Positions 7,014 through 37,923 of a stretch of 37,923 nt of DNA are shown one piece after another (position 1 is the stretch's first letter; the number at the start of each line of letters is the position of its first letter). The stretch is from positions 1 through 37,923 of IMG/VR virus record IMGVR_UViG_3300041955_000551; one strand, 5' to 3'. Made by a program: the position numbers and the translations under genes. This stretch comes from a virus. A model generated the notes under the pieces. It was not told where the DNA came from and searched no databases. It saw only the letters and a list, made by a program, of their open reading frames with translations.

Positions 7014-7262
7014 TCATTCAGGCTGGCGGGTGCCAATCGGCTGTCTGGGCTCAAGCTCCAGAAGTAAGATTGGAAACGGCGCGTCGGGGCGGTCGGTCAG
7101 GTGGCCGAAAGGTGCGTGGCCGGGAGAGACGTAGACAACGAGGTTCTTGTTGATGAGCGCCTCGTAGATTTCGTCGGCGAACTCGTCAATGTTGGGTTCG
7201 ACGTGGAAGCCGTTGGCTCTTGGCCGGCCGGTCAGGTAATCGATCAGGCGGGCGTATTTCAT
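7014..7262 (-). CDS. Small early protein, unknown function
   Basis: This 82-residue protein starts at ATG 7262, with GCGAGGAC upstream, inside an ATGA overlap with the gene before it. It begins MKYARLIDYLTGR, has an acidic helix (IDEFADEIYEALI), then strands. The compact mixed profile suggests a soluble domain. No known motif is seen. Confidence 0.65.
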   Translation of the reverse strand: MKYARLIDYLTGRPRANGFHVEPNIDEFADEIYEALINKNLVVYVSPGHAPFGHLTDRPDAPFPILLLELEPRQPIGTRQPE

Positions 7263-7588
7263 CGCATTGGGTCCTCGCAACAGGCACTGCAGAGATCGAA
7301 ACTCACCCATTCACAGCCGCCGTCGCAGGCGTTGTCGGCGGTGCAACCGCATTTCTTGCAGCGTTGGAGCTCGGCGCGCTGGTCGAACCATTCGCGGAGA
7401 GTGCAGGACGGCCCGGTCGAGATAAAGAGCCGGGCTTCGACGATTTTCCAGAGAGGCCATTTGCGAATTGCGGTCGCGGTATGGCGGTAGCCGCGGTCGG
7501 CGAGCTGGCCGGAAAGCCAGATCGCCAGGGTTAGGGAGATTTTCCCTCGCTCGCGCGTCGGGTTGGTGTGGGTCGGTTTCATACGCAT
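7259..7588 (-). CDS. Cys-rich zinc-binding phage protein with a repeat-derived N-terminus
   Basis: The C-terminal third of this 109-residue protein has seven cysteines (residues 77, 80, 82, 88, 92, 100, 103) in a CxxCGC...C...C.W...LCxxC arrangement. I recognise this as a small zinc-knuckle type common in phage genomes. The first 26 residues, including NPTRERGKISLTL, are encoded inside the 107-bp direct repeat 7512-7618, which also supplies a GGGAG ribosome binding site for ATG 7588 (an in-frame ATG at 7582 is coupled to the tiny ORF 7579-7623). The family usually needs only the Cys domain, so the N-terminus may be recent. It could bind nucleic acid. Confidence 0.65.
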   Translation of the reverse strand: MRMKPTHTNPTRERGKISLTLAIWLSGQLADRGYRHTATAIRKWPLWKIVEARLFISTGPSCTLREWFDQRAELQRCKKCGCTADNACDGGCEWVSFDLCSACCEDPMR

Positions 7589-7740: not shown

Positions 7741-8022
7741 TCAGTCGTCGTAGCGGGGCTCGTAGGCGCGGGCCATGGCGGGGGCCGCGTCAAGGCGCTC
7801 GAGGGCTTTGATCACGCCGTTAGTGGTAATGCGGGCCAGTCCGGACGGTCCGATGCGATTGCGTAGGCTCTGGAGCGTCGGTACGTGGTCCTTGTGAATG
7901 CCGGTGTAGCGGCCAGTCTGCCAAGCGTGGTCAAGAGCTGCTCGCCAGCGTCGGCCATGGGTGGCGATAACGTCCAGTAAGGCGCGACATTCGGCCGCGT
8001 CCAGGGTGGGCGTGGTGGTCAT
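7741..8022 (-). CDS. Small early protein in a cassette between two 107-bp repeats
   Basis: This 93-residue protein starts at ATG 8022 with GAGGAGACATC just upstream. It is basic and helical (ALLDVIATHGRRWRAALDHAW..., then SLRNRIGPSGLARITTNGVIKALERL), which could fit a small DNA-binding or adaptor protein. No family is recognised. It is the only gene between the two copies of the 107-bp repeat, so it was probably added to the operon as a unit. Confidence 0.7.
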   Translation of the reverse strand: MTTTPTLDAAECRALLDVIATHGRRWRAALDHAWQTGRYTGIHKDHVPTLQSLRNRIGPSGLARITTNGVIKALERLDAAPAMARAYEPRYDD

Positions 8023-8129
8023 GATGTCTCCTCAAGGGAAGCGTGCTGGTCCGAAAGCCAGATCGCCAGGGTTAGGGAGATTTTCCCTCGCTCGCGCGTC
8101 GGGTTGGTGTGGGTCGGTTTCATACGCAT
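8019..8129 (-). pseudogene. Truncated copy of the zinc-protein N-terminus
   Basis: A 36-codon frame whose first 26 residues equal those of the protein at 7259-7588 and whose last residues (DQHASLEETS) are unrelated. It overlaps the stop of the upstream gene and ends in an ATGA overlap with the gene at 7741-8022. It lacks the Cys domain and is best read as the broken half of a duplication that still keeps translation coupled. Confidence 0.5.
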
Positions 8130-9428: not shown

Positions 9429-9758
9429 ATGATGCGAACAGAACTCGGAATGTATCGACTCGATGGTCATGAGCCAGTTCCGGTGTATGACACGAGCGAG
9501 TGGGCGCGGGCGTTCGCGGCGACCGACGGGACGGTGGCGCAGGACTTCGTGGGACGGGTCGAGGTCGTTACATATTTTCTCGGGGTCGATTACCATTTTC
9601 ATCGAGAGGGAGCGCCGCTTCTTTTTGAGACTGGGATCTTCCCGAGCAAGCGGCGGCATGACCGTCTCGCGCGACGGTATCACACGTGGGCCGAGGCGGA
9701 GGCCGGGCACGCCGAGATCGTCGCCGAGCTGCGTCGGGAGAGGAGCGAAGGGAAATGA
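9429..9758 (+). CDS. Conserved phage protein of the 'YDTSEWARAF' type
   Basis: This 109-residue protein starts at ATG 9429 after GAGGTGAGGCTG. The sequence VPVYDTSEWARAF (near 18-30), VEVVTYFLGVDYHF (near 50-63), LLFETGIF, and YHTWAEAEAGHAEIVAELR near the end is a pattern I recognise from many phages and mobile elements, always as a hypothetical protein. Its role is unknown. It ends by overlapping the next start (ATGA). Confidence 0.8.
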   Translation: MMRTELGMYRLDGHEPVPVYDTSEWARAFAATDGTVAQDFVGRVEVVTYFLGVDYHFHREGAPLLFETGIFPSKRRHDRLARRYHTWAEAEAGHAEIVAELRRERSEGK

Positions 9759-10042
9759 TCGGGATCGCGTTTCTAGGTTTCTGGGTCGCGTGCGGGGTTG
9801 CCCTACACCTCGCGTGCTCTCTTACGGGCTACTATATCTCGGCCGAGAAGGGGCGCGGGGGGCTCGAGGGGTTTTTGTTTGGGCTCGTCTTCGGACCGTT
9901 CGGGCTTTTGCTGGCGGTTTTGATGCCGGAGCCGCCGATGCGGCGTGAGCCGGTCGTCGCGTTTGGAGCGGTCGCGGGCGGAATTTTGGTTGCGGTTTTG
10001 GCGGTTGGGATTTGCGCGGTTTTAAGGGTGAGCGCGCCGTAG
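9755..10042 (+). CDS. Small membrane protein with three predicted transmembrane segments
   Basis: This 95-residue protein has hydrophobic segments at about residues 3-24, 38-57 and 68-90. The loop AEKGRGGLEGFLFGLVFGPFG resembles small inner-membrane proteins with a 'KGR...GfllG..fGPiGl' motif. It starts inside the previous stop (ATGA). Because it lies in the early and lysogeny region and away from the lysis genes, superinfection exclusion is a possible role, but this is a guess. Confidence 0.7.
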   Translation: MIGIAFLGFWVACGVALHLACSLTGYYISAEKGRGGLEGFLFGLVFGPFGLLLAVLMPEPPMRREPVVAFGAVAGGILVAVLAVGICAVLRVSAP

Positions 10043-10817: not shown

Positions 10818-11708
10818 TCAGTCGGCGGGGCCGTCGAGGGAATCAACGGCGCGCTGGAGGTCCTCTGGCGAGGACTCGCAATACAGGCGGGTCGTATCGA
10901 GGCGATCGTGGCCCAGGATCGCTGCGACGGTCTGGATGGGCATCCCGGCCTCGATGAGGCGGCGGGCGCACGTGTGCCTCAAGATGTGGGGATGGAAGCC
11001 CTCGAGGCCGGCTTTGCGCGCATAGGGCTCGAGGATCTTTTCAAGGGCCCGGACGCCGAGCGGTCCGCGCTGGCCCATCAGAATGTGATCGGTCGGGCCG
11101 CCTCCGCCGCCGAGGCGCGCCAAGTCGCAGAACGCGTCGCGGGCATCTTTGGAGAGCGGTACTTCGCGTTCTTTCCCCCCCTTCCCTCTGACGATCGCGT
11201 GACCTTTGCGGGGGCCGTTGTGGATGTCGGCTGTGAGGAGGCCGGCGAACTCGCCGATTCGTAGGCCGGTGCGCAGCAGAATGATCGTGATGGCTCTGTC
11301 GCGCGGGTGACCGTCGACGGCCTTGAGCAATCGAAGCTGCTCCCTCGAGGTAAGCCATCGCGGGCCTGGGCGAGCTCGGCGCACTTGCTTGGGGACCTGG
11401 ATCGGCTCAGAGATTCCGGCGGTGCCGGTCCAGCGCAGGAAGGAAGCCAGGGCGGAAAGGGCCGTGTTAACCGAGCTCGCTTTCACGCGCTTCGTGTCCT
11501 TGAGCCAGGCCTTGTAGTTTCGGAGATCGAAGGCGGCGATGTTGGCGGGTGAGAGCTCATCGGGGTAGTTCGACCGGTACCAAGCGGCGAAGGCGCCGAG
11601 CTGGTGGCGGTAGGTGCGGATGGTCGCGGCGGAGCGCTCGACCTCGACGAGCTGGCGGACGAATCCCTCGATGGCGTCGGACCAGGTGATGTTGGTCGCG
11701 GTGCTCAT
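10818..11708 (-). CDS. Second tyrosine recombinase, Xer-like, intact active site
   Basis: This 296-residue protein has an N-terminal SAM-like core-binding domain (10-100) and a catalytic domain (115-285) with all residues in place: Arg150 (TGLRIGE), Lys of the beta-hairpin (RGKGGKE), His241 and Arg244 (HILRHT), His267 (LGHDRLDTT) and Tyr276 (RLYCE). The length and spacing fit XerC/XerD and integron-like enzymes. It starts by an ATGA overlap with the Cys-motif gene. Possible roles are resolution of genome dimers, integration in place of the altered integrase at 1706, or excision. No clear dif-like site is seen nearby. Confidence 0.9.
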   Translation of the reverse strand: MSTATNITWSDAIEGFVRQLVEVERSAATIRTYRHQLGAFAAWYRSNYPDELSPANIAAFDLRNYKAWLKDTKRVKASSVNTALSALASFLRWTGTAGISEPIQVPKQVRRARPGPRWLTSREQLRLLKAVDGHPRDRAITIILLRTGLRIGEFAGLLTADIHNGPRKGHAIVRGKGGKEREVPLSKDARDAFCDLARLGGGGGPTDHILMGQRGPLGVRALEKILEPYARKAGLEGFHPHILRHTCARRLIEAGMPIQTVAAILGHDRLDTTRLYCESSPEDLQRAVDSLDGPAD

Positions 11709-12040
11709 TGCTTCGGCTCGAAGAGGACGCACGCAAAATCGGGTTTGGTTCTCAGGTGCACGACGACGTCGTCGAAGCCGCCGGCGATTTGGACGAGGTC
11801 CGCATCGGGATACTGTTCGGGATTTCCTTTCACTCCCCCCTGGTCAGGGATCGCAGCGCATTGGCCAAAGCCGGTTTTGGTATCTCGCCAAGGAAATGTT
11901 TCAGGTCCCCAATGGCGGCAGTCGCTACATCGTGGGATTCGGACATCGCCGTTTTTTACCGCAATGAAACCGTCCAGATTATCCGTCCAGATTTTGGGGT
12001 GATAAAACGGGGATAATTGTGGGGATACGGTGGTTTTCAT
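11705..12040 (-). CDS. Cys-motif protein coupled to the second recombinase
   Basis: This 111-residue protein starts at ATG 12040. Cys38 and Cys41 (RCSDCRHW), Cys61 (GQCAAI) and Cys104 (DFACVLFEPK) give a four-Cys metal site of the 'CxxCxxW...GxC...FxCxxFEP' kind that I have seen in phage and planctomycete proteins of unknown function. It is translationally coupled to the recombinase (ATGA), so it may help or regulate recombination. A -10-like TATAAT lies about 25 bp upstream. Confidence 0.7.
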   Translation of the reverse strand: MKTTVSPQLSPFYHPKIWTDNLDGFIAVKNGDVRIPRCSDCRHWGPETFPWRDTKTGFGQCAAIPDQGGVKGNPEQYPDADLVQIAGGFDDVVVHLRTKPDFACVLFEPKQ

Positions 12041-12367: not shown

Positions 12368-12970
12368 ATGTCGCTACCCTTCGCCGAGCGGGATCGGCTG
12401 ACTACCGAGCTCGACTTGCTGGCGTCCTGGTTCGCGGAGCGCTATGCGCGCCGCGGGCTTGAATTTGATGATGCGAGGCAGGAAGCGCTGACGGCAATCT
12501 GGGTCGCGGCGGGGAAGTTCCGACCCACGCGGGCCCATTGCCATGTGCCGTTTTCGGCGTTCGCCCGCAAGTTCATCGTCCGCGCCTTGGAGCGTGCGCG
12601 GGCCAAGGCTCGCTGCCGAGGAATCACGCAAGCCGGCGAGCGCGTGACCTTTGCGGGCATCGATCTCGATCAGATCACAGCGATCTCGGAGGCGACCGAT
12701 TCGGGCGCTCTCGGAGAGGCGCTGGGCCGGGCGATCGCCTCTCTGCAGCCGGAAGAGCGGATGCTGGTCCTGCGCCGCTATGGCCTCGATGGGTTGCCGA
12801 GTTGGAGTCTGGTCGAGTGCGCAAACGAATTCTTGATCACCGTTGCATCCGTGAAAAAACGATTGCAGCACGCGCGGGCAAAAATCGGCGCTGAACTCCG
12901 TTCTGCGGGATGGGATCCGGCGAACTGGCAACGCCGGGCAACGGAAGAAAAGGCCATCAAAGCGGGCTGA
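12368..12970 (+). CDS. Sigma-70-family RNA polymerase sigma factor (ECF-like)
   Basis: This 200-residue protein has region 2 at about residues 20-85 (ARRGLEFDDARQEALTAIW, then FSAFARKFIVRALERARAKARC) and region 4 at about 118-175 (ALGRAIASLQPEERMLVLRRYGLDGL, then a helix-turn-helix ending VASVKKRLQHARAKI). This is the two-domain plan of short sigma factors. It should direct host RNA polymerase to phage promoters. As the first gene of the long rightward block, it is a good candidate for the late-gene switch. The ribosome binding site is weak (GAGACC), so its expression may be limited. The downstream gene overlaps its stop (TGATG). Confidence 0.85.
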   Translation: MSLPFAERDRLTTELDLLASWFAERYARRGLEFDDARQEALTAIWVAAGKFRPTRAHCHVPFSAFARKFIVRALERARAKARCRGITQAGERVTFAGIDLDQITAISEATDSGALGEALGRAIASLQPEERMLVLRRYGLDGLPSWSLVECANEFLITVASVKKRLQHARAKIGAELRSAGWDPANWQRRATEEKAIKAG

Positions 12971-13260: not shown

Positions 13261-13457
13261 TCGGGCTCGAGAAGTGGAAGGACATCATCCCCGCGGGATA
13301 CGTCCAGTCAGGGCCTCGCGACTATCGCGAAGTTTTCCACGTTGTCTGGGTTCGGGCCCGGACGAAGTCGGAAGCTCGAGCCAGGGCAAAGATGGCGCTT
13401 GGCCATCCCATTCGATTGCCCATTGGATCGGAGTTCACGCTCGAATGTCCTCGGTAG
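13137..13457 (+). CDS. Small protein, unknown function
   Basis: This 106-residue protein starts at ATG 13137 behind GGAGGGTGGGGC, a strong ribosome binding site. The second half (EVFHVVWVRARTKSEARARAKMALG) has a strand-helix profile. It overlaps the previous frame by 124 nt and the next gene by 13 nt. It is the more credible of the two overlapping frames. Function is unknown. Confidence 0.6.
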   Translation: MGDVQLSHPPGRAAPARPANSLLGTFARWVQKRGAQRSSPVVGLEKWKDIIPAGYVQSGPRDYREVFHVVWVRARTKSEARARAKMALGHPIRLPIGSEFTLECPR

Positions 13458-14161
13458 TGAACGCGTTTGCGAAAGCGAAGGAGCGGACGGAGGTCCTGGC
13501 CGCGGCCAAGGGCGAGAGCTGCGCCTATTTCGTGGGCCGCGGGACGGAACACGAGGATCTCGGCGAGACAATCCGACTGTGGTGCAACGAGCACCTCAAG
13601 GCACGCGAGGCTCTGGCCAGAGCCGAGGGCTATGAGAAGCCGATCAGGGAATTTGCCGAGCGCGTCTGGGTCGAGCGCCTGGCGCAGGAGGGCATTCCCA
13701 GTCCGTCGCCCCTCAAGCTCGTGAACGCCGATGGGTCAACGGCGACCTTTGTGGTGCAGGACCGGACGGCGTCGACTCACATCGATGACAAGGCGCTCAC
13801 TGCGCTCTCGGAGACGGTCGGGCCGGAGGCGGTCGCCGCGGCGATCATCGAGCGAACAATCTACTCTTTCGATCCCAGGATCATGGGGCATGTGGTCAAT
13901 GTTCCGGGCCGGCGGCGAGCTCGAACGGTTGAATCGATCATTGGCGAGCGGTTGATGGCGATGACTGACGACCTTGTGGTCAAGGGCGTCCTGACGGCCG
14001 ATGAGGCTGGCGCGCTGATCGTCGCGTCATCGAAGCGAACGCTTAGTCCGGGGTTTGTGCGTGATTCCATACCGCCGCTTTGCGAGCACAAGGCGGGTCG
14101 AATAGCGCGGGCAATCGCGGCGCTGGGGTCGGCGGTGGTGCGGTTTCTCAAGCCAGCGTGA
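13445..14161 (+). CDS. Conserved protein of unknown function
   Basis: This 238-residue protein starts at ATG 13445. It is largely helical, with the central pattern LVNADGSTATFVVQDRTAS and then ERTIYSFDPRIMG near residue 140. The C-terminal part repeats helix-turn units (LTADEAGALIVASSKRTLSPGFVRD). I associate this 'TFVVxDR ... ERTVYSFDP' type with planctomycete phage-like regions but know no function. It is not a recognisable lysin or capsid component. It lies between the sigma factor and the protease. Confidence 0.7.
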   Translation: MSSVVNAFAKAKERTEVLAAAKGESCAYFVGRGTEHEDLGETIRLWCNEHLKAREALARAEGYEKPIREFAERVWVERLAQEGIPSPSPLKLVNADGSTATFVVQDRTASTHIDDKALTALSETVGPEAVAAAIIERTIYSFDPRIMGHVVNVPGRRRARTVESIIGERLMAMTDDLVVKGVLTADEAGALIVASSKRTLSPGFVRDSIPPLCEHKAGRIARAIAALGSAVVRFLKPA

Positions 14162-14163
14162 TC

Positions 14164-14925
14164 ATGCGAATCAGAGGTAAATACGGTAGGCTCGCGCCAC
14201 GCCCTGAAGTCCAAAGCCGGCTCCTGCGGCTGGCGTCCTACACCTCGAGCGCGCTCCCCGCCCCGCCGCCTGATTGCGATTGGACCCCAGCGGTCACCGG
14301 GCCCTGGCTCAATTGGTGGAACGACACGCTAGGCGACTGCACGGTCGAGACGGCTGGGCATCTCCTGATGTCGATGTCCGCCAACGCGAGCGCTCCCATC
14401 ATCCCAACGGCCCCTCAGATCCTCACGCCCTACGAGGCGGTCGGCGGCTATGACCCGGCCACCGGAGCCAATGACGACGGCCTGGTGCTGACGGACCTCC
14501 TGGACTACTGGGGACGCACCGGGATCGCGGGAAATCGGATCAAGGGTTACGTGCGGCTCAATGTCAACAACCTCAATCAAATCAAGCAGGCGATCTACCG
14601 ATTCGGCGGGGTGGCGCTGGGCATCCGGATGCCGCAGTCAGCCGAGGACCAGTTTGATCTCGGCAAGTCGTGGACCCGCACTTGGTGGCCGACACCCATC
14701 GTCGGCGGGCACGCAGTCCCGGCCCTCAGCTACACCCGCGATGGCCTGGGTGTGATCACGTGGGGCGAGAAACAGGGGCTCACCTGGGACTGGTACGAAG
14801 AGTATTGCGAAGAGGCGTATGCGATCCTCGATCTCATTTGGCTCAACTCCCGCGGTCAAACCCCCGTCGGGCTGGCGCTCAACCAGCTCATCAGCGACCT
14901 GGGCCAACTCCCGATGTCCGCGTGA
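14164..14925 (+). CDS. Papain-like cysteine protease, candidate lysis or wall-degrading enzyme
   Basis: This 253-residue protein has a nucleophile Cys59 in NDTLGDCTVETAGH and His183 in VGGHAVPALSY, followed by GVITWGEKQGLTWDWYEEYCEEAYAIL. This order (LGDC...GGHA...TWG....T..W) is that of C39/C1-like peptidases seen in phages and bacteria. It has no signal peptide. Four genes for small membrane proteins follow without a gap, so it is placed where an endolysin would be. No amidase, lysozyme or transglycosylase domain is found elsewhere in the genome. It may cleave wall proteins or peptide cross-links. An alternative is a virion maturation protease, but the prohead protease is at 22111. Confidence 0.7.
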   Translation: MRIRGKYGRLAPRPEVQSRLLRLASYTSSALPAPPPDCDWTPAVTGPWLNWWNDTLGDCTVETAGHLLMSMSANASAPIIPTAPQILTPYEAVGGYDPATGANDDGLVLTDLLDYWGRTGIAGNRIKGYVRLNVNNLNQIKQAIYRFGGVALGIRMPQSAEDQFDLGKSWTRTWWPTPIVGGHAVPALSYTRDGLGVITWGEKQGLTWDWYEEYCEEAYAILDLIWLNSRGQTPVGLALNQLISDLGQLPMSA

Positions 14926-15044
14926 GAGTCCGGTGGGCTAGCTGGCTCGATCGCTTCGTCTGGGTCGTCGCCATCATGCTCCTGATTCCGATCGTGGTGG
15001 CCTGGCTTGACTATTGTTGGCGCGCTCTCAACCAAATCCCGTGA
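14922..15044 (+). CDS. 40-residue single-span membrane protein, holin-like
   Basis: It starts at GTG 14922 in a GTGA overlap with the protease stop. One transmembrane segment (about residues 13-28, VWVVAIMLLIPIVVAW) sits between a basic N-terminus (VRVRWASWLDR) and a short tail. Size, topology and coupling to the protease fit a small holin or pinholin. Confidence 0.65.
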   Translation: MRVRWASWLDRFVWVVAIMLLIPIVVAWLDYCWRALNQIP

Positions 15045-15051
15045 GGTATCC

Positions 15052-15306
15052 ATGGCAGCTTTCGCAACGATCTTGGGTCTGATCATGCAGTACGGCCCCG
15101 GCGTGGTCGCGGCCCTGGGGTCGATCCTGGCCTACTTGAAGGCCGCGCAAGCTCATACCGTGGCCACTGAAAACGCCACGTCACTCCAGTCTCTCCACGC
15201 CAAGGTCAGCTCCCTGATGGGCGCTCGATCCGTGCCGACTCCGCTACCCCCTCCGCGCTCCGGACCGATCCCGCTCAGGGCGCACGAACTCGACATCAAC
15301 GACTGA
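15052..15306 (+). CDS. Small protein with N-terminal membrane segment
   Basis: This 84-residue protein starts at ATG 15052 after GAGGTATCC. A hydrophobic segment (about 4-30) is followed by a helical stretch with heptads (AHTVATENATSLQSLHAKVSSL) and a Pro-rich tail. It is probably part of the lysis cassette. Another role at the membrane is possible. Confidence 0.6.
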   Translation: MAAFATILGLIMQYGPGVVAALGSILAYLKAAQAHTVATENATSLQSLHAKVSSLMGARSVPTPLPPPRSGPIPLRAHELDIND

Positions 15307-15315
15307 GGAGCCCTG

Positions 15316-15498
15316 ATGTACTCCCTCGTTCAACTGATCATCATGGCCATCGTGATCGCCGGCATCGTCGGCATCGCCATGATCGTGATTCGCCAAGCCG
15401 GGATTTCGATTCCGGGCTGGATTATCAACATCTTCTGGATCGTGCTGGTCGTCGTGGTGGCTGTCGTCGCCATCAAGTTTCTCGCGGGGATGATGTGA
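15316..15498 (+). CDS. 60-residue protein with two transmembrane segments, holin-like
   Basis: It starts at ATG 15316 behind GAGGAGCCCTG. Two hydrophobic segments (about residues 5-25 and 34-57), nearly the whole protein, are joined by a short loop. This is the class II holin topology. It lies between two other membrane proteins. Confidence 0.65.
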   Translation: MYSLVQLIIMAIVIAGIVGIAMIVIRQAGISIPGWIINIFWIVLVVVVAVVAIKFLAGMM

Positions 15499-15499
15499 T

Positions 15500-15835
15500 A
15501 TGGACCCCGGCGAGATCAAGAACGGCTGGCAAGCGATGGTCACGATCATACCCTGGATTCTGACATTTTTGACCGCCTTGGCGGGGGCCTACTTCGCTTT
15601 TCAAATCAAGGTAACAGTGCTCGGCCAAGCCAAGGGCTTCGCCGCGCGGAATGAAGCGACCAACGCGAAAATCGAGGAGCTCCACGTCGCGGTCAACTCG
15701 CGGCTGACGGCCCTTTTGGAGACGACGGCGAAGCTGGCCAAGGCGCAGGGCATCGCAGAGGGCATCACGAAGGGGCGGGGCGACGACAGCGCGCAGCAAA
15801 AACCCCCGGCCAGCGACAAGCTAACCGGGGGCTGA
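15500..15835 (+). CDS. Membrane-anchored coiled coil, i-spanin/Rz-like
   Basis: This 111-residue protein starts at ATG 15500. One N-terminal transmembrane segment (about 12-36) is followed by a long helix with heptad pattern (about 40-92) and a polar Pro-rich end. This is the design of inner-membrane spanins. It is followed by a Pro-rich exported protein, so the pair could bridge the inner and outer membranes. Direct evidence is topology only. Confidence 0.55.
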   Translation: MDPGEIKNGWQAMVTIIPWILTFLTALAGAYFAFQIKVTVLGQAKGFAARNEATNAKIEELHVAVNSRLTALLETTAKLAKAQGIAEGITKGRGDDSAQQKPPASDKLTGG

Positions 15836-15925
15836 TTCCACGCTCCGTAAGGTAGATCGGATGCTCAGCCGATACAACATGAGTGTCGCTTTTCTTTCCG
15901 ACCACTCACGTTCCGAGGTTTGACC

Positions 15926-16492
15926 ATGCTCCGTTTATCGGTGTGTCTCGCTGTCCTATTGTCCTGTGTGTCTGCGTGGGCTCAAGCCCCATCCCCGCAA
16001 CAGCCCGTAGCAGCCCCGGCGAAAGCCCCTCCACAAGCAATCCCCCCGGCGCAGCAGTATCCGGGCGCTCAGCCCGGCTACTACCTCGTACCGGCTCCGC
16101 AGTGGTATTCCACCCCGGCGATTCCGTGGACTCCCCAGGCCCTGATGGGCGTCCAAGCCTATGCCGCGCCGGCCGCTAATCCGTGCTCGATCGTGCTCGG
16201 TCCTAGCCTGGTTGGTCAGGGCCTGGCGGCTGTCGGCCGGCGCATGGCCACGCTCGGGCAAAAGCAGTGGGTCATCCAGCGCGTGGCCACGGCTCCCGTG
16301 CAGCCCGTCGTGGTGACCCCCGTTGTCGCGCAACCCGCTATCCAGCCCCCGCCGCAACCGGGATTCGTGCCGAGCCCTCCCGTGTTTTTCTCGGGCGCTA
16401 ACCCATCGCGTGAGGCAGCTCCGCCTCCGCCAGTGGCACCGAGCCCGCAAAAACAAGCGGCCGTCTGGCCACCGTCCAACGTGTCGTTCTGA
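15926..16492 (+). CDS. Pro-rich exported protein, possible lipoprotein (o-spanin candidate)
   Basis: This 188-residue protein starts at ATG 15926 with CGAGG upstream. The first 21 residues are a Sec signal, MLRLSVCLAVLLSCVSAWAQ. Cleavage could be by signal peptidase I after AQA or by the lipoprotein enzyme at Cys14 (LLSC). The mature part is rich in Pro, Ala and Gln with no domain, like enlarged Rz1-type outer-membrane spanins. It could also be a surface protein of the host cell made during infection. It ends the lysis cassette. Confidence 0.65.
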   Translation: MLRLSVCLAVLLSCVSAWAQAPSPQQPVAAPAKAPPQAIPPAQQYPGAQPGYYLVPAPQWYSTPAIPWTPQALMGVQAYAAPAANPCSIVLGPSLVGQGLAAVGRRMATLGQKQWVIQRVATAPVQPVVVTPVVAQPAIQPPPQPGFVPSPPVFFSGANPSREAAPPPPVAPSPQKQAAVWPPSNVSF

Positions 16493-16558: not shown

Positions 16559-16858
16559 ATGTTTGGTTCTTTCGTCAACAAAATCGCTGCGGCTGTCGCG
16601 GCGCTCATCAACCCTCGTCTGACAGCACTGGAGAAAACCGTGAACAGCCTCGAAACCGCAATCGCCGCTCTGCAAACCGACGTCACGGCGCTCACCGCCG
16701 CTGTCGCCGCTCTACCCCCGGCCAGTACCAACACCTACACCCCGGCCGACGTCGCCAACGTGACGGCCGCCGACACCGCCGTGAAAGCGGCCGTGGCCGC
16801 GCTCACGACGTACAGCACTCCGCCCGCGCCCGCGCCGACTCCGGCGCCGGCTTCCTGA
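16559..16858 (+). CDS. Ala-rich coiled-coil protein
   Basis: This 99-residue protein starts at ATG 16559. A short amphipathic helix (MFGSFVNKIAAAVAALI) and a heptad region (LTALEKTVNSLETAIAALQTDVTALTAAVAAL) are followed by a Pro-Ala tail. There is no clear ribosome binding site; the start lies 8 nt after a hairpin. It could be a scaffold-like or structural helper, or part of the lysis group. Function is unknown. Confidence 0.55.
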   Translation: MFGSFVNKIAAAVAALINPRLTALEKTVNSLETAIAALQTDVTALTAAVAALPPASTNTYTPADVANVTAADTAVKAAVAALTTYSTPPAPAPTPAPAS

Positions 16859-16861
16859 CCG

Positions 16862-17245
16862 ATGCCGCAACGAGTTCCAACGCACCGTCCCGCAGCGGTC
16901 GCGGTCTCGCGACATAGAGACTACGACCGCTATGCCCGGGATCGCGACGCCAAGGCGTTCTATTCGTCCCCGGCCTGGCGGTCTCTCCGTCTCAGTAAGC
17001 TGAGGGCCTACCCGTTGTGCCAACCATGCCACCGTGCGGGCCGTCTCGCGATCGCCATGATCGTGCACCACAAGCAACCAATCGACACCCATCCAGAGGT
17101 AGCGCTCGACTGGGATAACCTGGAGTCAATCTGCGCATCGTGTCACAGTCGGCACCATGCCGCCGATCGCGGCCAGGCCCCTTCCATCGATGAGAGTGCA
17201 TGCACTGGTACGTCTGCACCCATGCACACCCCAGGGGGGGAGTGA
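16862..17245 (+). CDS. HNH endonuclease
   Basis: This 127-residue protein has Cys53 and Cys56 (CQPC), the catalytic VHHKQPI (His69-His70), WDNLESICASCH (Asn87, Cys91, Cys94, His95) and a final HH, the full HNH zinc-finger nuclease pattern. The position directly before the terminase subunits is the standard one for HNH proteins that work with terminase in cos-type DNA packaging of HK97-like phages. The gap 17246-17353 is then a candidate for the packaging site. Confidence 0.85.
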   Translation: MPQRVPTHRPAAVAVSRHRDYDRYARDRDAKAFYSSPAWRSLRLSKLRAYPLCQPCHRAGRLAIAMIVHHKQPIDTHPEVALDWDNLESICASCHSRHHAADRGQAPSIDESACTGTSAPMHTPGGE

Positions 17246-17353
17246 TTTTGCTGGGCCGCGCGCTCCCCAGGCCGCAGACGGCCGACCGCGATTTTTTGAG
17301 CAAAATTGGCATGCCTTTTTTGTTGTCAGTCGCCATCTAATGAGCATCTTGAC

Positions 17354-17749
17354 ATGAGAGGGCGCAAGCCGAAGCCTACGGCGCTGAAAATCCTCGAAGG
17401 GCATCAGAAGAGCCGCACGAATTTTGCGGAGCCGAGGATTCCGGAGGCCGAACTCACACCCCCGCGGTGGCTCACATTGGAGGCGCTAGAACACTGGATC
17501 GAGCTGGGCCCGGTCCTCCGGTCGGCCGGCTTGCTCAGCCAGGGCGATCGGCCGGCGTTCGCCATGCTGTGCGAAGAGTATGCGAGGATCCGCCGATCCC
17601 GAAAAGCCGCCAACGCAGACAAAGCGCGTGAGAGATATCGGCGTTGGCTGACGGAATTCGGGCTCACTCCGTCGTCGCGCTCGCGAATCAAATCAACGGC
17701 CGAACCTCCGAAAGATGAGCTCCAAGTTTTTCTCGAAAAGAAGGCGTGA
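17354..17749 (+). CDS. terS: Terminase small subunit, P27 family
   Basis: This 131-residue protein starts at ATG 17354 and opens with MRGRKPKPTALKILEGH, the hallmark of the P27 family, then PPRWLTLEALEHWIELGPVL and a helical C-terminus ending EVFLEKKA-like (QVFLEKKA). It should recognise phage DNA and start packaging with the large subunit. HNH, small terminase, a short gene and large terminase follow in order. Confidence 0.9.
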   Translation: MRGRKPKPTALKILEGHQKSRTNFAEPRIPEAELTPPRWLTLEALEHWIELGPVLRSAGLLSQGDRPAFAMLCEEYARIRRSRKAANADKARERYRRWLTEFGLTPSSRSRIKSTAEPPKDELQVFLEKKA

Positions 17750-17991
17750 TGCCGCAGCTTTTATTGCCTCCCTCGGCCCGGCCGGCGCAGCCGGCGATGA
17801 AACCTGGTGTTCAGCTCGCGTTTGGACAGGACGGCGCGAATGTCTGGATCCAGTGCACTTCCACCGTGGTCCTAGCTCCCGAACAGGCACTCCAATTTGC
17901 CGAGCAACTCAAAGCAGCATGTGAAGCCGCGGCGCAGTTCCGCGAAGCGGTCCTCAACCCCGCGCCTGTCATCGCCAACGGCCACGTTTGA
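17749..17991 (+). CDS. Small protein between the terminase subunits
   Basis: This 80-residue protein starts at ATG 17749 in a TGATG overlap with the small terminase stop. The N-terminus is Pro-rich, followed by a strand pair (GVQLAFGQDGANVWIQCTSTVVL) and a helix (PEQALQFAEQLKAACEAAAQF). Its 3' end overlaps the large-terminase frame. No known function. Confidence 0.6.
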   Translation: MPQLLLPPSARPAQPAMKPGVQLAFGQDGANVWIQCTSTVVLAPEQALQFAEQLKAACEAAAQFREAVLNPAPVIANGHV

Positions 17992-19579
17992 TTGGGTCCG
18001 CAATGCCTCTGATGAGCTCGCTCTTTCGCAGGGTTACCACTTCTCTGAGGCTCATGGGCAGCGGGCTTGCGATTTCATCGAGCAATTTTGTCGACAGTCG
18101 AAGGGTCGATGGGCCGGCCAGCGTTTGATTCTCCTTCCATGGCAGCGGGATTACATCATGAGACTCTTTGGTTGGCGGGCTCCTAGCGGGCTCCGGCGCT
18201 TCCTCACGTCCTATCTGGAAATCGCGAAGAAAAATGGGAAATCGACGCTGATCTCGGCGATCGCGCTCCTGCTGTTGATTGCCGATTGCGAAGGGGCTCC
18301 GGAGGTCTATCTGAATGCGGTTGATCGCAGCCAGGCCAACATCGTCTATGAAGAGGCGGTGCGCATGGTGAAGGCGAGTCCGGGGTTGAGATCGCGGCTG
18401 CAGGTGATCGAGAGTCGGGGCGTGATCGTGGATCCGGCTAACTACGGGAAGATCCAGAAGAACTCGGCCGACGCTCCCTCGAAGGATGGGATCAATCCCT
18501 CCGGTACGATCTTCGACGAGTTGCACCGGTTCAAGACTCGATCGCTCTGGGACGTTTTCCAGTATGCATCGGTCGCCCGTGAGCAGCCGCTGCGGATCGT
18601 GATCACGACAGCCGGCGAGGAAGAAGACGGCGTCTGGTTCGAACAACGCGATTACTCGGAAAAGGTCAACGCCGGCCTGGTTCCCGACGTCACTCACCTC
18701 GGAATCGTCTATCGCGCGGAGCGGACCGATGATCTCGATTCTCCCGAGACTTGGCGCAAGGCCAATCCTTCGCTTGGAGTGACGATCTCGGAGGAGGGCT
18801 TCCGTCGCGAGCTGGCAAAAGCCAAGGAGACGCCCTCTGAATGGGGCAACTTCCTGCGCCTCCGTCTCAACATCGTCGTCGCCGGCGAGACGAGGTTTTT
18901 GCGCATCGAGGATTGGGATCGTTGCAAAGATCCGCCGGTCGTGGAGCCGGGCGAGCCCTTCTTGCTTGGGCTCGATCTCTCGGACACTCAGGATCTCACA
19001 GCGCTCGCCCAGGTTGCCGGCGATCTTTATGACGGAATCCACGCGCGGATGTGGTTTTGGCTTCCCGAGGACAACATCGTCAATCTCGAGCGCCGGCACC
19101 AGTTGCCCTACCGGGCCTGGGCGGAGCAGGGGCTCATTACGCTCACTCCGGGCAATGTGATCGACTACGAGTTTATCCGCTCGGAGATTCTCCTCTTGGC
19201 CGGCCAGGGCGAATGCCGCAAGGTCCTCATCGATCCCTACAACGCGACCAAGCTCGGGATCACGCTCAAAGAGCAGGATGGCCTTCCTGTCGAGTTCGTG
19301 CGTCAGGGCTTCTTGTCCCTTTCCGCTCCAACGAAGGAGCTCGAGCGATTGATCTTGGCCGGCAAGCTGCGCCACGGCGGTAACCCAATCCTGCGGAATC
19401 ACGCTAGCAATGCGGTCGTGGTGAAAGACGCGGCCGGCAATGTGAAGCTCCACAAGGAGAAGAGCAGGAAGAAGATCGATGGGCTAGCGGCTCTGGTCAA
19501 TGCGGTCGCCGGACTTAGCACCGGCGGTCTCGATCTCGAACCAAGCGTTTACGAGTCTCGCGGGCTCCTTTTTGTCTAG
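17921..19579 (+). CDS. terL: Terminase large subunit
   Basis: This protein of about 552 residues packages DNA into the prohead and cuts it. The ATPase has a Walker A, AKKNGKST (about residues 102-109), and a Walker B, GTIFDELHRF (Asp198, catalytic Glu199). The nuclease domain begins at GLDLSDTQDLTAL (about 350), with a later DPYNA and KKIDGLAALVNA acidic positions. This is the HK97-type Terminase_1 family. The start is uncertain: GTG 17921 is proposed, and TTG 17897 is in frame. Either overlaps the previous gene. No strong ribosome binding site is seen, so translation may be coupled. Confidence 0.92.
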   Translation: MKPRRSSAKRSSTPRLSSPTATFDWVRNASDELALSQGYHFSEAHGQRACDFIEQFCRQSKGRWAGQRLILLPWQRDYIMRLFGWRAPSGLRRFLTSYLEIAKKNGKSTLISAIALLLLIADCEGAPEVYLNAVDRSQANIVYEEAVRMVKASPGLRSRLQVIESRGVIVDPANYGKIQKNSADAPSKDGINPSGTIFDELHRFKTRSLWDVFQYASVAREQPLRIVITTAGEEEDGVWFEQRDYSEKVNAGLVPDVTHLGIVYRAERTDDLDSPETWRKANPSLGVTISEEGFRRELAKAKETPSEWGNFLRLRLNIVVAGETRFLRIEDWDRCKDPPVVEPGEPFLLGLDLSDTQDLTALAQVAGDLYDGIHARMWFWLPEDNIVNLERRHQLPYRAWAEQGLITLTPGNVIDYEFIRSEILLLAGQGECRKVLIDPYNATKLGITLKEQDGLPVEFVRQGFLSLSAPTKELERLILAGKLRHGGNPILRNHASNAVVVKDAAGNVKLHKEKSRKKIDGLAALVNAVAGLSTGGLDLEPSVYESRGLLFV

Positions 19580-22110: not shown

Positions 22111-22869
22111 ATGAACCTCCTCGACCAGGTGATCGCTCTCCTCCGCGGGGGCAATGCGCGCGGGCAGGTCCTCCACGCCCCGAAGCTCGATGAGCAAGCG
22201 GTCGAGCTGCTCCGCGCGGACCTCGAGCGCATCCAGGCCGGGAGCCCTAAGCGGGCGATGTTCGGCGTTGAGAGACGATTCATCCCCGAACAGGTCGAGC
22301 TGCGGAAGGCCAAGTTCGGCGGGCCGGGTCGCATGGTGGGCTATGCAGCCAAATTCGGCGTTCTGAGCGTCGATCTCGGCGGTTGGAAAGAGTTGCTCCA
22401 ACCCGGGGCCTTCGCCATGGCGATCGCCAACGGGGAAGATTGCCGGTGCCTCCGCAATCACATGGACGACAACCTTCTCGGCCGCCAGTCGGCGGGCACG
22501 CTCGAGCTTCAGGAAGACGCCGACGGCCTCCGCTTTGAGTGCGACCTGCCCGACACGCAAACCGGTCGCGATACGGCGGAGAACATCCGCCGCAAGGATA
22601 TGACCGGGTGCTCTTTCCAGTTCAGCGTTCGCGAAGGCGGCACGCAGTGGAATTTCGACGCTGAGATGCCACTCCGGACGGTGCTCGCCAACGGCGTCAA
22701 ACGGCTCTACGACGTGGGGCCCGTCACCTTCCCAGCCTACGAATCAACCGAAGTCGATATGCGGTCATTCGAAGCCGCCAGGGCCGCATTGCAACATCTG
22801 CCGGCGGCGGCCGTCTTAGAGGCCATTTCTCGCGCCAAAGCGCGCCAGCGGCTCGCCGAGGCTCTCTAG
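22111..22869 (+). CDS. HK97-family prohead protease
   Basis: This 252-residue protein cleaves the scaffold part of the capsid protein during assembly. GYAAKFG (77-83), the catalytic His117 in RNHMDDNLLGR, Ser168 in MTGCSFQF and VGPVTFPAYEST (202-213) are the U35 family pattern. An N-terminal extension of about 65 residues precedes the usual start of the domain and may be a further scaffold segment. Confidence 0.9.
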   Translation: MNLLDQVIALLRGGNARGQVLHAPKLDEQAVELLRADLERIQAGSPKRAMFGVERRFIPEQVELRKAKFGGPGRMVGYAAKFGVLSVDLGGWKELLQPGAFAMAIANGEDCRCLRNHMDDNLLGRQSAGTLELQEDADGLRFECDLPDTQTGRDTAENIRRKDMTGCSFQFSVREGGTQWNFDAEMPLRTVLANGVKRLYDVGPVTFPAYESTEVDMRSFEAARAALQHLPAAAVLEAISRAKARQRLAEAL

Positions 22870-32461: not shown

Positions 32462-33937
32462 TTGGATAAAATCGGTATAGCGGCGGACACCAAGCCGCTT
32501 GAGGCCAACGTCAAGCAGGCCGAGGGCGTCGTCGAGGGGTTCAAGAGCAACCTCCTCGCGATGGGTGCGGCGGCCGGCGCTGCGTTTCTTTCGTTCGAGG
32601 CGATCAAGGGCCTTTATGAGTGGGTCAAGGGCGCGGGCGAGGCGATCAACCAGGCTCGGGTCATGGCCGATCGCGTCGGGATGAGCAGCGAGGCTTTTAA
32701 TAAGCTCTCCTATGCCGCCACCGCGGCCGGCATCGATGAAGGCACCTTCGCGATGTCCGTTGAGCAGATGAATAAGCGCCTCGGCGAGCTTGCCGTCGAG
32801 GGCACCGGGCCCGCGGCCGACGCGTTGAAGCGTTTCGGCCTCAGCGCCCGCCAGCTCGCCGAGCAGGGGCCGGAGGCCAGCTTCGAGAAATTGGTCGGCG
32901 TGCTGGGCAGCATCAAGAATCCGGCCGAGAGAGCGGCTGTGGCCATGGACCTCTTCGGCAAATCCGGTCAGGCGATACTCAACCTCGCCGAGAAGGGGCC
33001 GGGCGGCCTCAAAGAGTTAGAGGAAGAGGCCCAGAAATTGGGTATCGCGACGAGCAACGTCGACGCCGAAAAGGTCCGCGAAGCGGAACATGCCTGGAAT
33101 CAGATCTGGACCGCAGTGCAGGGTCTGGGGCGCACGATCGCCGTTGAGCTCGCGCCCCATATCGCTTATGTCGCCGACGCGTTTAGCGACTGGGTCAAGC
33201 GGTCCAATGGTTTCGCGGTGATCGGGAGTGCCATTCACGATTTCGTGCTCAAGCCAATTTACATCGTGGCTGATGTGGTCAAGTTCGTGGAGTCGGCACT
33301 GCTGAGCCTCGGTGCAGCCGGGGTGCAGGCTTTCGCCGATCTGGCGAAGGGCGCAGCGGGATTTTCCGCGGCCATTAGCGGCCAGGGGAAGGCAGCGGGC
33401 GCAGGCGCACGCAAAGGCCATTGGGGCGGCCCTGATTGGGGGGCAATCTTGGGCGACGGTGCCGCCCCAGCGGCCGAGGCAAAGCAGCCGGGGAAATCGG
33501 GCTTCCTCGAGGGTTGGGCGGACGCTCTTCAGAAAAAATCCGACGAGATGCAGGCCCACGCGTTCAAGCTATGGAACGAGATCGGGAAGGGCCTCGACGA
33601 TGTCACCAAGGGTGCGGAGGATCGCGCCAAGGCCGCGGCCGATCGTAGTGCCGCTTTCCGCGCTCCGGGCGCTCTCTCTCCGCTCGAGCCGCCCAAGGCA
33701 AAGCCCAAGGAAAAAGAATTTGCCGGCGCTTTCACGCTGGGCTCAAAGGAAGCCTACTCGGCGATCGTGCAGTCGCGCGGCCAGTTTCTCTCGCAAAACG
33801 ACGCCAAGGTCACCGCGAAGAACACCGGCGAGGCGGCGGCCGAGCTCAAGGGGCACACGGCGATTCTGACGAAGATCGCCGCCGGCCTGGATCGCGCCGG
33901 CGGCGGGAATCTCGCGACGTCAGTGCACAACCACTAG
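32462..33937 (+). CDS. Tail tape measure protein
   Basis: This 491-residue protein is helical, with a membrane-like stretch (LLAMGAAAGAAFLSF), a GMSSEAFNKLSYAATAAG segment and AERAAVAMDLFGKSGQAIL, all typical of tape measures. It sets tail length. The frame opens with TTG 32462. A far better start, TAAGGAGGCGGACCG followed by ATG 32448, is out of frame by one base and stops after 10 codons (MATIGWIKSV). One lost base near 32460 would explain this. The length is short for a tape measure, which suggests a short tail. Confidence 0.85.
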   Translation: MDKIGIAADTKPLEANVKQAEGVVEGFKSNLLAMGAAAGAAFLSFEAIKGLYEWVKGAGEAINQARVMADRVGMSSEAFNKLSYAATAAGIDEGTFAMSVEQMNKRLGELAVEGTGPAADALKRFGLSARQLAEQGPEASFEKLVGVLGSIKNPAERAAVAMDLFGKSGQAILNLAEKGPGGLKELEEEAQKLGIATSNVDAEKVREAEHAWNQIWTAVQGLGRTIAVELAPHIAYVADAFSDWVKRSNGFAVIGSAIHDFVLKPIYIVADVVKFVESALLSLGAAGVQAFADLAKGAAGFSAAISGQGKAAGAGARKGHWGGPDWGAILGDGAAPAAEAKQPGKSGFLEGWADALQKKSDEMQAHAFKLWNEIGKGLDDVTKGAEDRAKAAADRSAAFRAPGALSPLEPPKAKPKEKEFAGAFTLGSKEAYSAIVQSRGQFLSQNDAKVTAKNTGEAAAELKGHTAILTKIAAGLDRAGGGNLATSVHNH

Positions 33938-35342: not shown

Positions 35343-36953
35343 TTGCCAATCCAACAAAACAACCCGATATCCCCGAACGGTGGGGGTTCGGGCACTGCGA
35401 CCGGTACCGCGTCGGCTCATGCGCGCAGCCGGTTCGTCCAGCATCAGGGCCTTCCGCTCGGTCTGCCGAGTGGACTGCCTGGCCGCGGCCTCGTGGTGGC
35501 AGTCCAGCCCGCACGGCGGCCGCGGCCGCCAGCGATCCGGGCTCTGCCTCCGCTGGGTTTGCCGCCGAGTATCGGCCGTGGCGTGGCGGTGCAGGTCCGC
35601 AGCTCGCGGCGGCCAGGCCAGGTCATCGCGCGGGCTTTACCCCCGCACAGTTTGGCGCCGAGCCTCGGCGGCGGTGTGTCGGTGCATGTGCGGTCGGTTC
35701 GCCGGCCGACGCCCATTGCAATCCGGGCCCTGCCTCCGCCGAGCTTGGCGCCGACCACGATTCGCTCGGTCGTCTGGCCGGTGCGGCCGGTGCGGCGGGG
35801 TCGCCTCGTCTTGGCGCGGGCCTTGCCTCCACCGAGCTTGGCGCCGACCACGATTCGCTCGGCCGCCTGGCCGGTGCGATCGGCACCAAGGCCGCGGCCG
35901 GTTCTGGCGCGTGCGCTGCCTCCGCCGAGTTTGCCGCCGAGCCTGGGCACGGGGGTCGCTGCGCATTTGAGAACGGTGGCGCGGACGAAGGCGCTGGCGG
36001 TGCAGACGCCTCCATTCCCTGCCCTGGGCGGGTTCCCGAATGCGCAGGCGGGGGGAGTGCGATTTCTCGGGGTCGGCGGTACCGGCAGCGGCTGCGCCTG
36101 CTGCCCGGGGACGACGTGCCTCGAGTTTTTGGGGTGCAACCAGTCCGCGCTGCAGGGCGTCACCGTCAACGTCTACACCAAGAATGGCGGCACACTGGTC
36201 GCGGGCCCGCTCACTTCGAATTCGTCGGGATTCGTCTGCGCGTCGCTGATGACTGGCTCGTACTATGTGGTGCCGACCGGCACGGCCTGGCCGCTGAATC
36301 TCTACCAGTGGAACCCGACTCAGATCGAGCTGATATCCGGCCGGGCCGTCCTTTGGGGTCCGCCGGTGGTTTCGGGCTACGGCTGTTGCTCGACCGTGAA
36401 TTTCCCGCTGCCCCTGACGCTCTATTTGACCGTGTGCTCGCAGACGTTCACGTTGGTTGCACCGATCGTCAATCACCAGATCCAGGGCTGGGCGCCGATC
36501 GGAGCGACGGCCGACATCACGACCCCCTTTGTCGCTGTTGTCGGCGACCCGCCGGACTGCGACCTCGGCGGCTGGGATGGAGTGACGACCGACGTCCAAA
36601 CGGTTCCATGGGCTGTGCGGCTGTTGTGTCCGTCGGCCACCGGAGATGACGCGACCATGACCGGCCTGGCCGGTGTGTGCGGGATCGGGCATTACAACGG
36701 CCACATCGGTGGCTTCGATGCATTCGCGATCTGTCCGGCCGAGTGTGTGGGCGTGGGGAACGCCTACACTTGCTGTAACGGCGGCGCAGGGCCAGGGCCC
36801 GGCGTTCCATTCGCGCTGACCGGCACGATTGGCGAGGCGGGCGTCAGCCTCAGCGGCACGATGCCAGGCGGCGTGTCGACGAGCTGCGTGCTGCCTCCCG
36901 CGGCGCCGTGGCCGCTGCCGTGTGCCGGCGAGGGAATCCTCGTCACGAACTAA
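35343..36953 (+). CDS. Tail fibre/spike-like protein with six 31-residue repeats and a Cys-rich tip
   Basis: This 536-residue protein starts at TTG 35343 with GAGGTTGGATCTCTGA upstream. Residues 1-36 are a flexible head. Residues 37-222 are six exact-length units of 31 residues, core LPPPSLAP...VxVRSxRRP. After them comes a Cys-rich region: CACCPGTTCLEFLGCNQSAL, an Ig-like module with VTVNVYTKNGGTLVAGPLTSNSSGFVC, and several further Cys pairs (YGCCSTV, YTCCNGG). It is probably the host-binding fibre, with the repeat as shaft and the Cys-rich part as tip. Family is not recognised. Confidence 0.75.
   Translation: MPIQQNNPISPNGGGSGTATGTASAHARSRFVQHQGLPLGLPSGLPGRGLVVAVQPARRPRPPAIRALPPLGLPPSIGRGVAVQVRSSRRPGQVIARALPPHSLAPSLGGGVSVHVRSVRRPTPIAIRALPPPSLAPTTIRSVVWPVRPVRRGRLVLARALPPPSLAPTTIRSAAWPVRSAPRPRPVLARALPPPSLPPSLGTGVAAHLRTVARTKALAVQTPPFPALGGFPNAQAGGVRFLGVGGTGSGCACCPGTTCLEFLGCNQSALQGVTVNVYTKNGGTLVAGPLTSNSSGFVCASLMTGSYYVVPTGTAWPLNLYQWNPTQIELISGRAVLWGPPVVSGYGCCSTVNFPLPLTLYLTVCSQTFTLVAPIVNHQIQGWAPIGATADITTPFVAVVGDPPDCDLGGWDGVTTDVQTVPWAVRLLCPSATGDDATMTGLAGVCGIGHYNGHIGGFDAFAICPAECVGVGNAYTCCNGGAGPGPGVPFALTGTIGEAGVSLSGTMPGGVSTSCVLPPAAPWPLPCAGEGILVTN
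35451..36008 (+). repeat. Six tandem 93-bp coding repeats
   Basis: Six units of 31 codons in the 35343 gene. Units 4 and 5 are nearly identical over about 47 bases (from 35739 and 35832), showing recent copying, while the others have diverged. Confidence 0.85.
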
Positions 36954-37737: not shown

Positions 37738-37923
37738 ATCACTCAGAAAGCCACCGCAAATTGTCACGTCAGACTCGAATGGCGCCACGACGGCCGGACT
37801 GGCGCACGAACGACCGATCTGAACTGGCTCCGCAATGCGCGGAACCCTTATACGGGGACGCTATTCTCCGGCCGTGACACCAACGTCACGTTTTTCACCC
37901 CATCCGGAGAGTGGACGTGGGCC
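37735..37923 (+). CDS. Small protein crossing the contig join (5' part)
   Basis: First 63 codons of the 109-residue protein completed at 2-268. It starts at the ATG ending leader copy 1 (GAGAGGGG upstream) and begins MITQKATANCHVRLEWRHDG. The part after 37797 is the repeated overlap, so it also appears at the window start. Confidence 0.75.
   Translation, partial: MITQKATANCHVRLEWRHDGRTGARTTDLNWLRNARNPYTGTLFSGRDTNVTFFTPSGEWTWA
37797..37923. repeat. 127-bp terminal direct repeat, right copy
   Basis: Identical to bases 1-127; see the left copy. One of the two should be removed to obtain the circle. Confidence 0.9.

Follow-up and report, generated by a model that had tools for sequence, protein, structure and literature searches.

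Phages of the lambda type keep their lysis genes directly ahead of their terminase genes. Actinophage lysis cassettes can contain cysteine-peptidase genes that adjoin a glycosidase gene, forming two-gene endolysins (PMC4982276, PMC3314691); in Gordonia phage BetterKatz one such gene of the lysin A N5 or 'protease C39' kind, gp29, is presumed to cut peptidoglycan peptides and has a GH19 hydrolase as its partner. Short C1A peptidases of the xylellain type have also been noted in Myoviridae and Siphoviridae as horizontal acquisitions, with no role given (PMC10380794).

The locus described here lies in a stretch of viral DNA of 37,923 bp (the whole of which we call the window) and resembles the lambda-type holin–endolysin cassette in that small membrane genes and one enzyme stand directly ahead of the terminase genes, but the enzyme is a papain-fold protease and no peptidoglycan hydrolase is recognised. 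As in BetterKatz, a cysteine peptidase shares its cassette with small membrane proteins; a second hydrolase, present beside the protease in many of its relatives, is not recognised in the window. Membership of the lysin A N5/C39 group was considered and rejected, as hhalign gave a probability of 0.5% against BetterKatz gp29. Our literature search on papain or astacin proteases as phage lysis enzymes and on the endolysins of planctomycete phages returned nothing relevant beyond the actinophage cases cited. The first-pass annotation had called a protease lysin an undescribed solution, which holds in part: cysteine peptidases of actinophage cassettes and C1A peptidases of phages were already known, and what is new, as far as the literature was searched, is the association of this family with lysis, a complete genome in which no hydrolase is recognised, and the differing proteases of sister phages.

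The window is a complete siphophage genome. Its first 127 bases are identical to positions 37797–37923 (a direct terminal repeat, unstranded), so the genome is circular or terminally redundant, with a length of ~37.8 kb. Matches to Pfam and PHROGs identify a P27-type small terminase, TerL, a portal, an S78 prohead protease (22111–22869), an HK97-type capsid and a short tape measure, and the nearest phage isolates, from unrelated hosts, are ~30–40% identical at the major capsid protein (MCP) or TerL. Two tyrosine-integrase-like genes (1706–2707 and 10818–11732, minus strand) are found in this one small phage genome. An identical 107-bp segment also occurs twice and yields two ORFs (7259–7582 and 8019–8123, minus strand) that both begin with MKPTHTNPTRERGKISLTLAIWL; the segment reads NPTRERG, a peptide that resembles a repeat of planctomycete genomes.

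The cassette lies on the plus strand, as do its neighbors, between a gene for a sigma-70-like factor (12368–12970, profile match), a possible late regulator just 5′ of it, and the packaging genes that directly follow (16862–19579): an HNH endonuclease (16862–17245), terS (17354) and TerL (17921), all assigned by profile matches. An ORF of 234 residues to which no function is assigned (13457–14161, plus strand) precedes the protease gene. Among the ~57 other ORFs of the window no peptidoglycan hydrolase was found by Pfam (E≤0.01) or, among the listed matches, by PHROGs (1e-3/1e-4), the second PHROGs list holding the best 25 of 50 families; this upholds the annotation's statement that none is recognised in the genome. 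The single-sequence fold of the 13457–14161 product is unreliable (pLDDT 48.6), and for this reason a hydrolase may be hidden there.

The protease gene runs from ATG 14164 to TGA 14925 (plus strand, 253 residues), with an alternative start at GTG 14158 that overlaps the stop codon of the upstream ORF as GTGA (14158–14161). Its own stop codon overlaps the GTG start of a 40-residue protein with one predicted transmembrane (TM) segment (14922–15044, plus strand), again as GTGA (14922–14925). Judged from the sequence, this overlap couples the two genes translationally, as had been claimed, and the 40-residue product is a putative pinholin, holin or partner of the protease. Three more small membrane proteins had been counted downstream, two of which stand: a holin-like 60-residue protein with two TM segments (15316–15498, plus strand), which has a weak match to phrog_13364 (E 0.0011, function not assigned) and no homologues in phage records, and a 111-residue protein in which one N-terminal TM segment is followed by a charged helical region (15500–15835, plus strand). 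TM prediction thus places holin-like small membrane proteins adjoining the enzyme at 14922, 15316 and 15500. The third, an 84-residue protein with a hydrophobic N-terminal half and a Pro-rich tail (15052–15306, plus strand), is of uncertain membrane association, no TM segment being called by a simple predictor. The Pro-rich exported protein of the annotation, 188 residues and rich in Pro and Ala, has a signal-peptide-like N-terminus from ATG 15926 (15926–16492, plus strand). Shine-Dalgarno-like GAGG sequences precede 15052, 15316 and 15926. A 99-residue Ala-rich protein, probably a coiled coil, follows (16559–16858, plus strand) and is weakly matched (E 0.017) in the relative L071 by a gene that lies 0.6 kb away from the protease gene. 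Comparison of the window's small membrane proteins with genes near other proteases of the family gave no convincing matches. L052, L071 and L083 have, downstream of their protease genes, two-TM genes about the size of that for the 60-residue protein. Separately, a 95-residue protein with three TM segments (9755–10042), 4.4 kb 5′ of the cassette, has a sub-threshold match to Phage_holin_5_2 (17.5 bits, cut-off 29.2).

The protease itself has no Pfam match at E≤1 and belongs with phrog_19005 (E 1.4e-25), a PHROGs family with no assigned function, to which the present work adds the association with lysis cassettes. We gathered 148 homologous sequences, the window's included, which were reduced to 117 by removal of near-copies. 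With residues counted from ATG 14164, the Cys59 and His183 that had been taken for the active site of a papain-like protease are conserved in 116 of the 117 sequences, as are Asn53, Asp54, Gly57 and Trp200, and Asp104 and Gly106 are kept in all 117. Structure prediction, which had been put forward as a check of this dyad, returned a papain fold (AlphaFold2, mean pLDDT 92.4, pTM 0.90). The best PDB match by Foldseek is xylellain (3ois, E 4.6e-9), on which VIA-align 2 superimposes 205 residues of the model (Z 22.3, rmsd 2.3), and the family profile also reaches 3ois at E 1.2e-5, with cathepsins weaker. The active-site Cys, His and Trp are thus shared with xylellain-type bacterial C1A proteases, together with the papain fold over ~205 residues including a propeptide-like N-terminus. 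In contrast to these enzymes, the window's protein is only 17% identical to them, has no Pfam match, and belongs to a family found in lysis cassettes; the oxyanion-hole Gln that stands six residues ahead of the Cys in C1A enzymes is Asn53 here (116/117), and the catalytic Asn of the NSWG motif is absent, the window having I198-T-W-G and the aligned homologues a hydrophobic residue or Lys with the Trp kept. Because of these two replacements protease activity is not certain, and because two papain features are missing and no curated profile matches, we describe the protein as papain-fold and C1A-like and leave it outside the C1A peptidases. Alignments to many zymogens cover the model from residue 1, and those to several mature papain-type enzymes from about residue 33; these ranges suggest a propeptide-like N-terminus. 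No signal peptide is present.

The position of the gene in a lysis cassette would also suit a true endolysin, that is, a papain-fold peptidase acting on the peptide stems or cross-links of peptidoglycan in the manner of NlpC/P60, CHAP or the actinophage lysin A N5 and representing a new branch of such enzymes. Clan CA does include known wall peptidases (PMC10318531), and actinobacterial relatives pair the protease with a glycosidase, much like BetterKatz gp29/gp30 (PMC4982276). The tail of the L019 homologue also has a very weak resemblance to SPOR (E 0.065). This is the main rival to our reading, yet we consider it unlikely, since the top fold matches are to C1A enzymes that cut proteins (xylellain, cathepsins) and homology to N5 is lacking; the wall peptidases NlpC/P60, CHAP and C39 are absent from those top matches, which leaves room for kinship with them. 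The partners and sister phages described below also weigh against it. In a separate observation, the homologues in L019 and L061 are long and bear C-terminal Ig-like domains (Big_3_5, E 8e-16 in L061).

The protease family is common in environmental viruses, with 166 matches in one scan, and was found in only 4 of the 50,697 phage records searched; plasmids gave no close homologues, and a scan of genome contigs yielded nothing with a single protein as query and 62 loci with an alignment as query. The full records of 50 relatives were surveyed for four hydrolase families (GH25, Amidase_2, M15 and GH24). Seventeen of the 21 hydrolases encountered, the 21st being that of phage record MW202816, lie on the same strand within 1.5 kb of the protease, where uniform positions would give 1.55; the corresponding P of ~1e-16 under this uniform-position null is too small, because of the relatedness among the records. 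These 17 partners comprise five GH25, six M15 (one below cut-off), three GH24 and three Amidase_2 enzymes, and in three further records a TIGR02594 or Rv2525c-type hydrolase adjoins the protease, one TIGR02594 match being below cut-off. Among genes on the protease's strand, those predicted to encode small membrane proteins account for 22.5% up to 1.5 kb away, 13% at 1.5–3 kb and 5–7% beyond 3 kb, an enrichment of about fourfold near the protease. Based on these distributions, the family is associated with lysis cassettes, and the gene at 14164–14925 is probably a lysis-cassette protease.

What the protease does in such cassettes can be approached through its partners. On the protease tree, for which part of the labelling was done by reading sequences, the type of partner hydrolase requires nine changes for six labels and has therefore switched repeatedly. 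A protease that stays constant while its partner changes is in keeping with an accessory enzyme that acts on something other than the bond cut by the hydrolase, and a peptidase of peptidoglycan would be redundant beside the M15 peptidases already among the partners, which counts against the endolysin interpretation. Most relatives in which a hydrolase is recognised have the protease together with a canonical endolysin, and so the family-wide role of the protease looks accessory and not that of a stand-alone lysin. The proposal that the protease is itself the lysin accordingly fares unevenly: the conserved active site, the cassette association, the complete genome with no recognised hydrolase and the sister proteases speak for it, and the usual pairing with a normal endolysin speaks against it.

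Other genes recur near the protease. A lipoprotein gene stands immediately 5′ of it in several relatives, and a gene for a lipoprotein of ~200 residues, a possible spanin-like partner, overlaps the protease gene in phages of Komagataeibacter (L004:12654–13259 and prophages of acetic acid bacteria). A gene of ~350 residues with the motif HPNVHxPWSxWSExQTLHVA, apparently glycosyltransferase-like, adjoins the protease or lies near it in L001, L007, L014, L026, L043, L046, L066 and L090.

Not all homologues keep to such surroundings. In L012, L024, L037 and L038 the protease gene is found among head, packaging or head-tail genes, and on account of these four relatives the product could be a virion protein, either an injection or a maturation protease, whose gene stands near lysis genes by chance. 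This is improbable in our estimation, as an S78 prohead protease is already encoded in the window, and a structural protein would not be expected to have its gene next to small TM genes and hydrolases of several folds. A role as the prohead protease is unlikely with S78 present in the phage. L102 and L106 are homologues in actinobacterial genomes, beside ABC-transporter genes and in a non-phage context; such chromosomal occurrences, like the missing signal peptide, would agree with a protease that acts inside the host, in take-over, counter-defence or superinfection exclusion, and whose location is incidental. Translational coupling to a membrane protein and the family-wide enrichment near holin-like genes and hydrolases make an intracellular role of this kind the least probable of the explanations that we weighed.

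Sister phages of the window's structural clade, gathered by TerL and capsid similarity, were examined for what they carry in its place. G053 (38,213 bp; MCP 65% and TerL 57% identical to those of the window) has no papain-fold homologue, by a search with the family profile that was repeated on pieces of its genome, and no Pfam hydrolase at E≤0.01. It encodes instead an astacin of 200 residues (G053 35639–36241, equivalent to L157:2640–3242; PF01400, 27.5 bits, cut-off 22.5) with the motif HELGHALGLIHEH and the Met-turn SIMEYP; a search for relatives of this astacin found only its own record. The astacin gene is followed by one gene for a small hydrophobic protein and another for a sigma factor, with an HNH-like stretch at the end of the contig and terS at its start. 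G056 (36,036 bp; MCP 69% identical) encodes a Trypsin_2 protease (G056 32577–33793, equivalent to L251:15577–16794; 48.1 bits, cut-off 27.6) with a full His-Asp-Ser triad, a hydrophobic segment at its N-terminus and a tail rich in Pro; 3′ of it lie a methyltransferase gene and then a gene for a 36-residue membrane protein. Trypsin_2 is above cut-off in none of 50 other phage records, and the hydrolase check of G056 was made against the hydrolase examples of this analysis, as distinct from Pfam. The Pro-rich tail resembles the Pro-rich exported protein of the window in composition.

The astacin, trypsin-like and papain-fold genes occupy the same broad region, from the early genes to terS, in a gene order that is similar and not identical. 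Three unrelated protease clans in one clade and in one region offer the strongest pointer to proteolysis itself as the conserved function, with one instance of each in a small sample, and since astacins and trypsin-like enzymes are cutters of proteins, they argue further against a peptidoglycan target. In two other members of the clade, G055 and G058, neither a protease nor a hydrolase was recognised, and an enzyme that escaped recognition may therefore be hidden in the clade. The TerL relatives L158–L235, many of which are short fragments, contain no papain or astacin. G055 and G058 (L249, L252) also have genes with prepilin-type N-termini (FTLIELL, ITLLEIL) 3′ of the tail genes; we take genes of this prepilin-like kind to be associated with planctomycete genomes. 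That the host of the window's phage may be a planctomycete is a surmise of the first-pass annotation.

Taken together, we propose, at a probability of roughly one in three, that a lineage of tailed phages uses an endoprotease, and not a peptidoglycan hydrolase, to lyse its hosts, with proteases of unrelated clans (papain-fold, astacin and trypsin-like) swapped in this role. That the papain-fold protease is the main lytic enzyme of the window's own phage is likewise a tentative suggestion, which we hold at a similar probability, well short of even odds. The protease would be made in the cytoplasm, as expected with no signal peptide, and its first ~33 residues, which align to the propeptides of pro-cathepsins, would probably keep it latent. 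Late in infection the 40-residue protein, the 60-residue protein or both may act as holins and pass the protease through the inner membrane. It is then conceivable that the released enzyme cleaves envelope proteins and thereby breaks the links that hold the envelope together. In most relatives the protease would help a normal endolysin to complete lysis, whereas the recognisable lytic enzyme of the window's clade appears to be an endoprotease whose type varies.

If true, this proposal would break the rule by which phages with double-stranded DNA cleave peptidoglycan to finish an infection. It would also tell us which hosts rely on proteins for the strength of their envelopes, a matter of long argument in the case of planctomycetes. 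A weaker reading would still give phrog_19005 a function, as an accessory protease acting alongside endolysins with several different folds.
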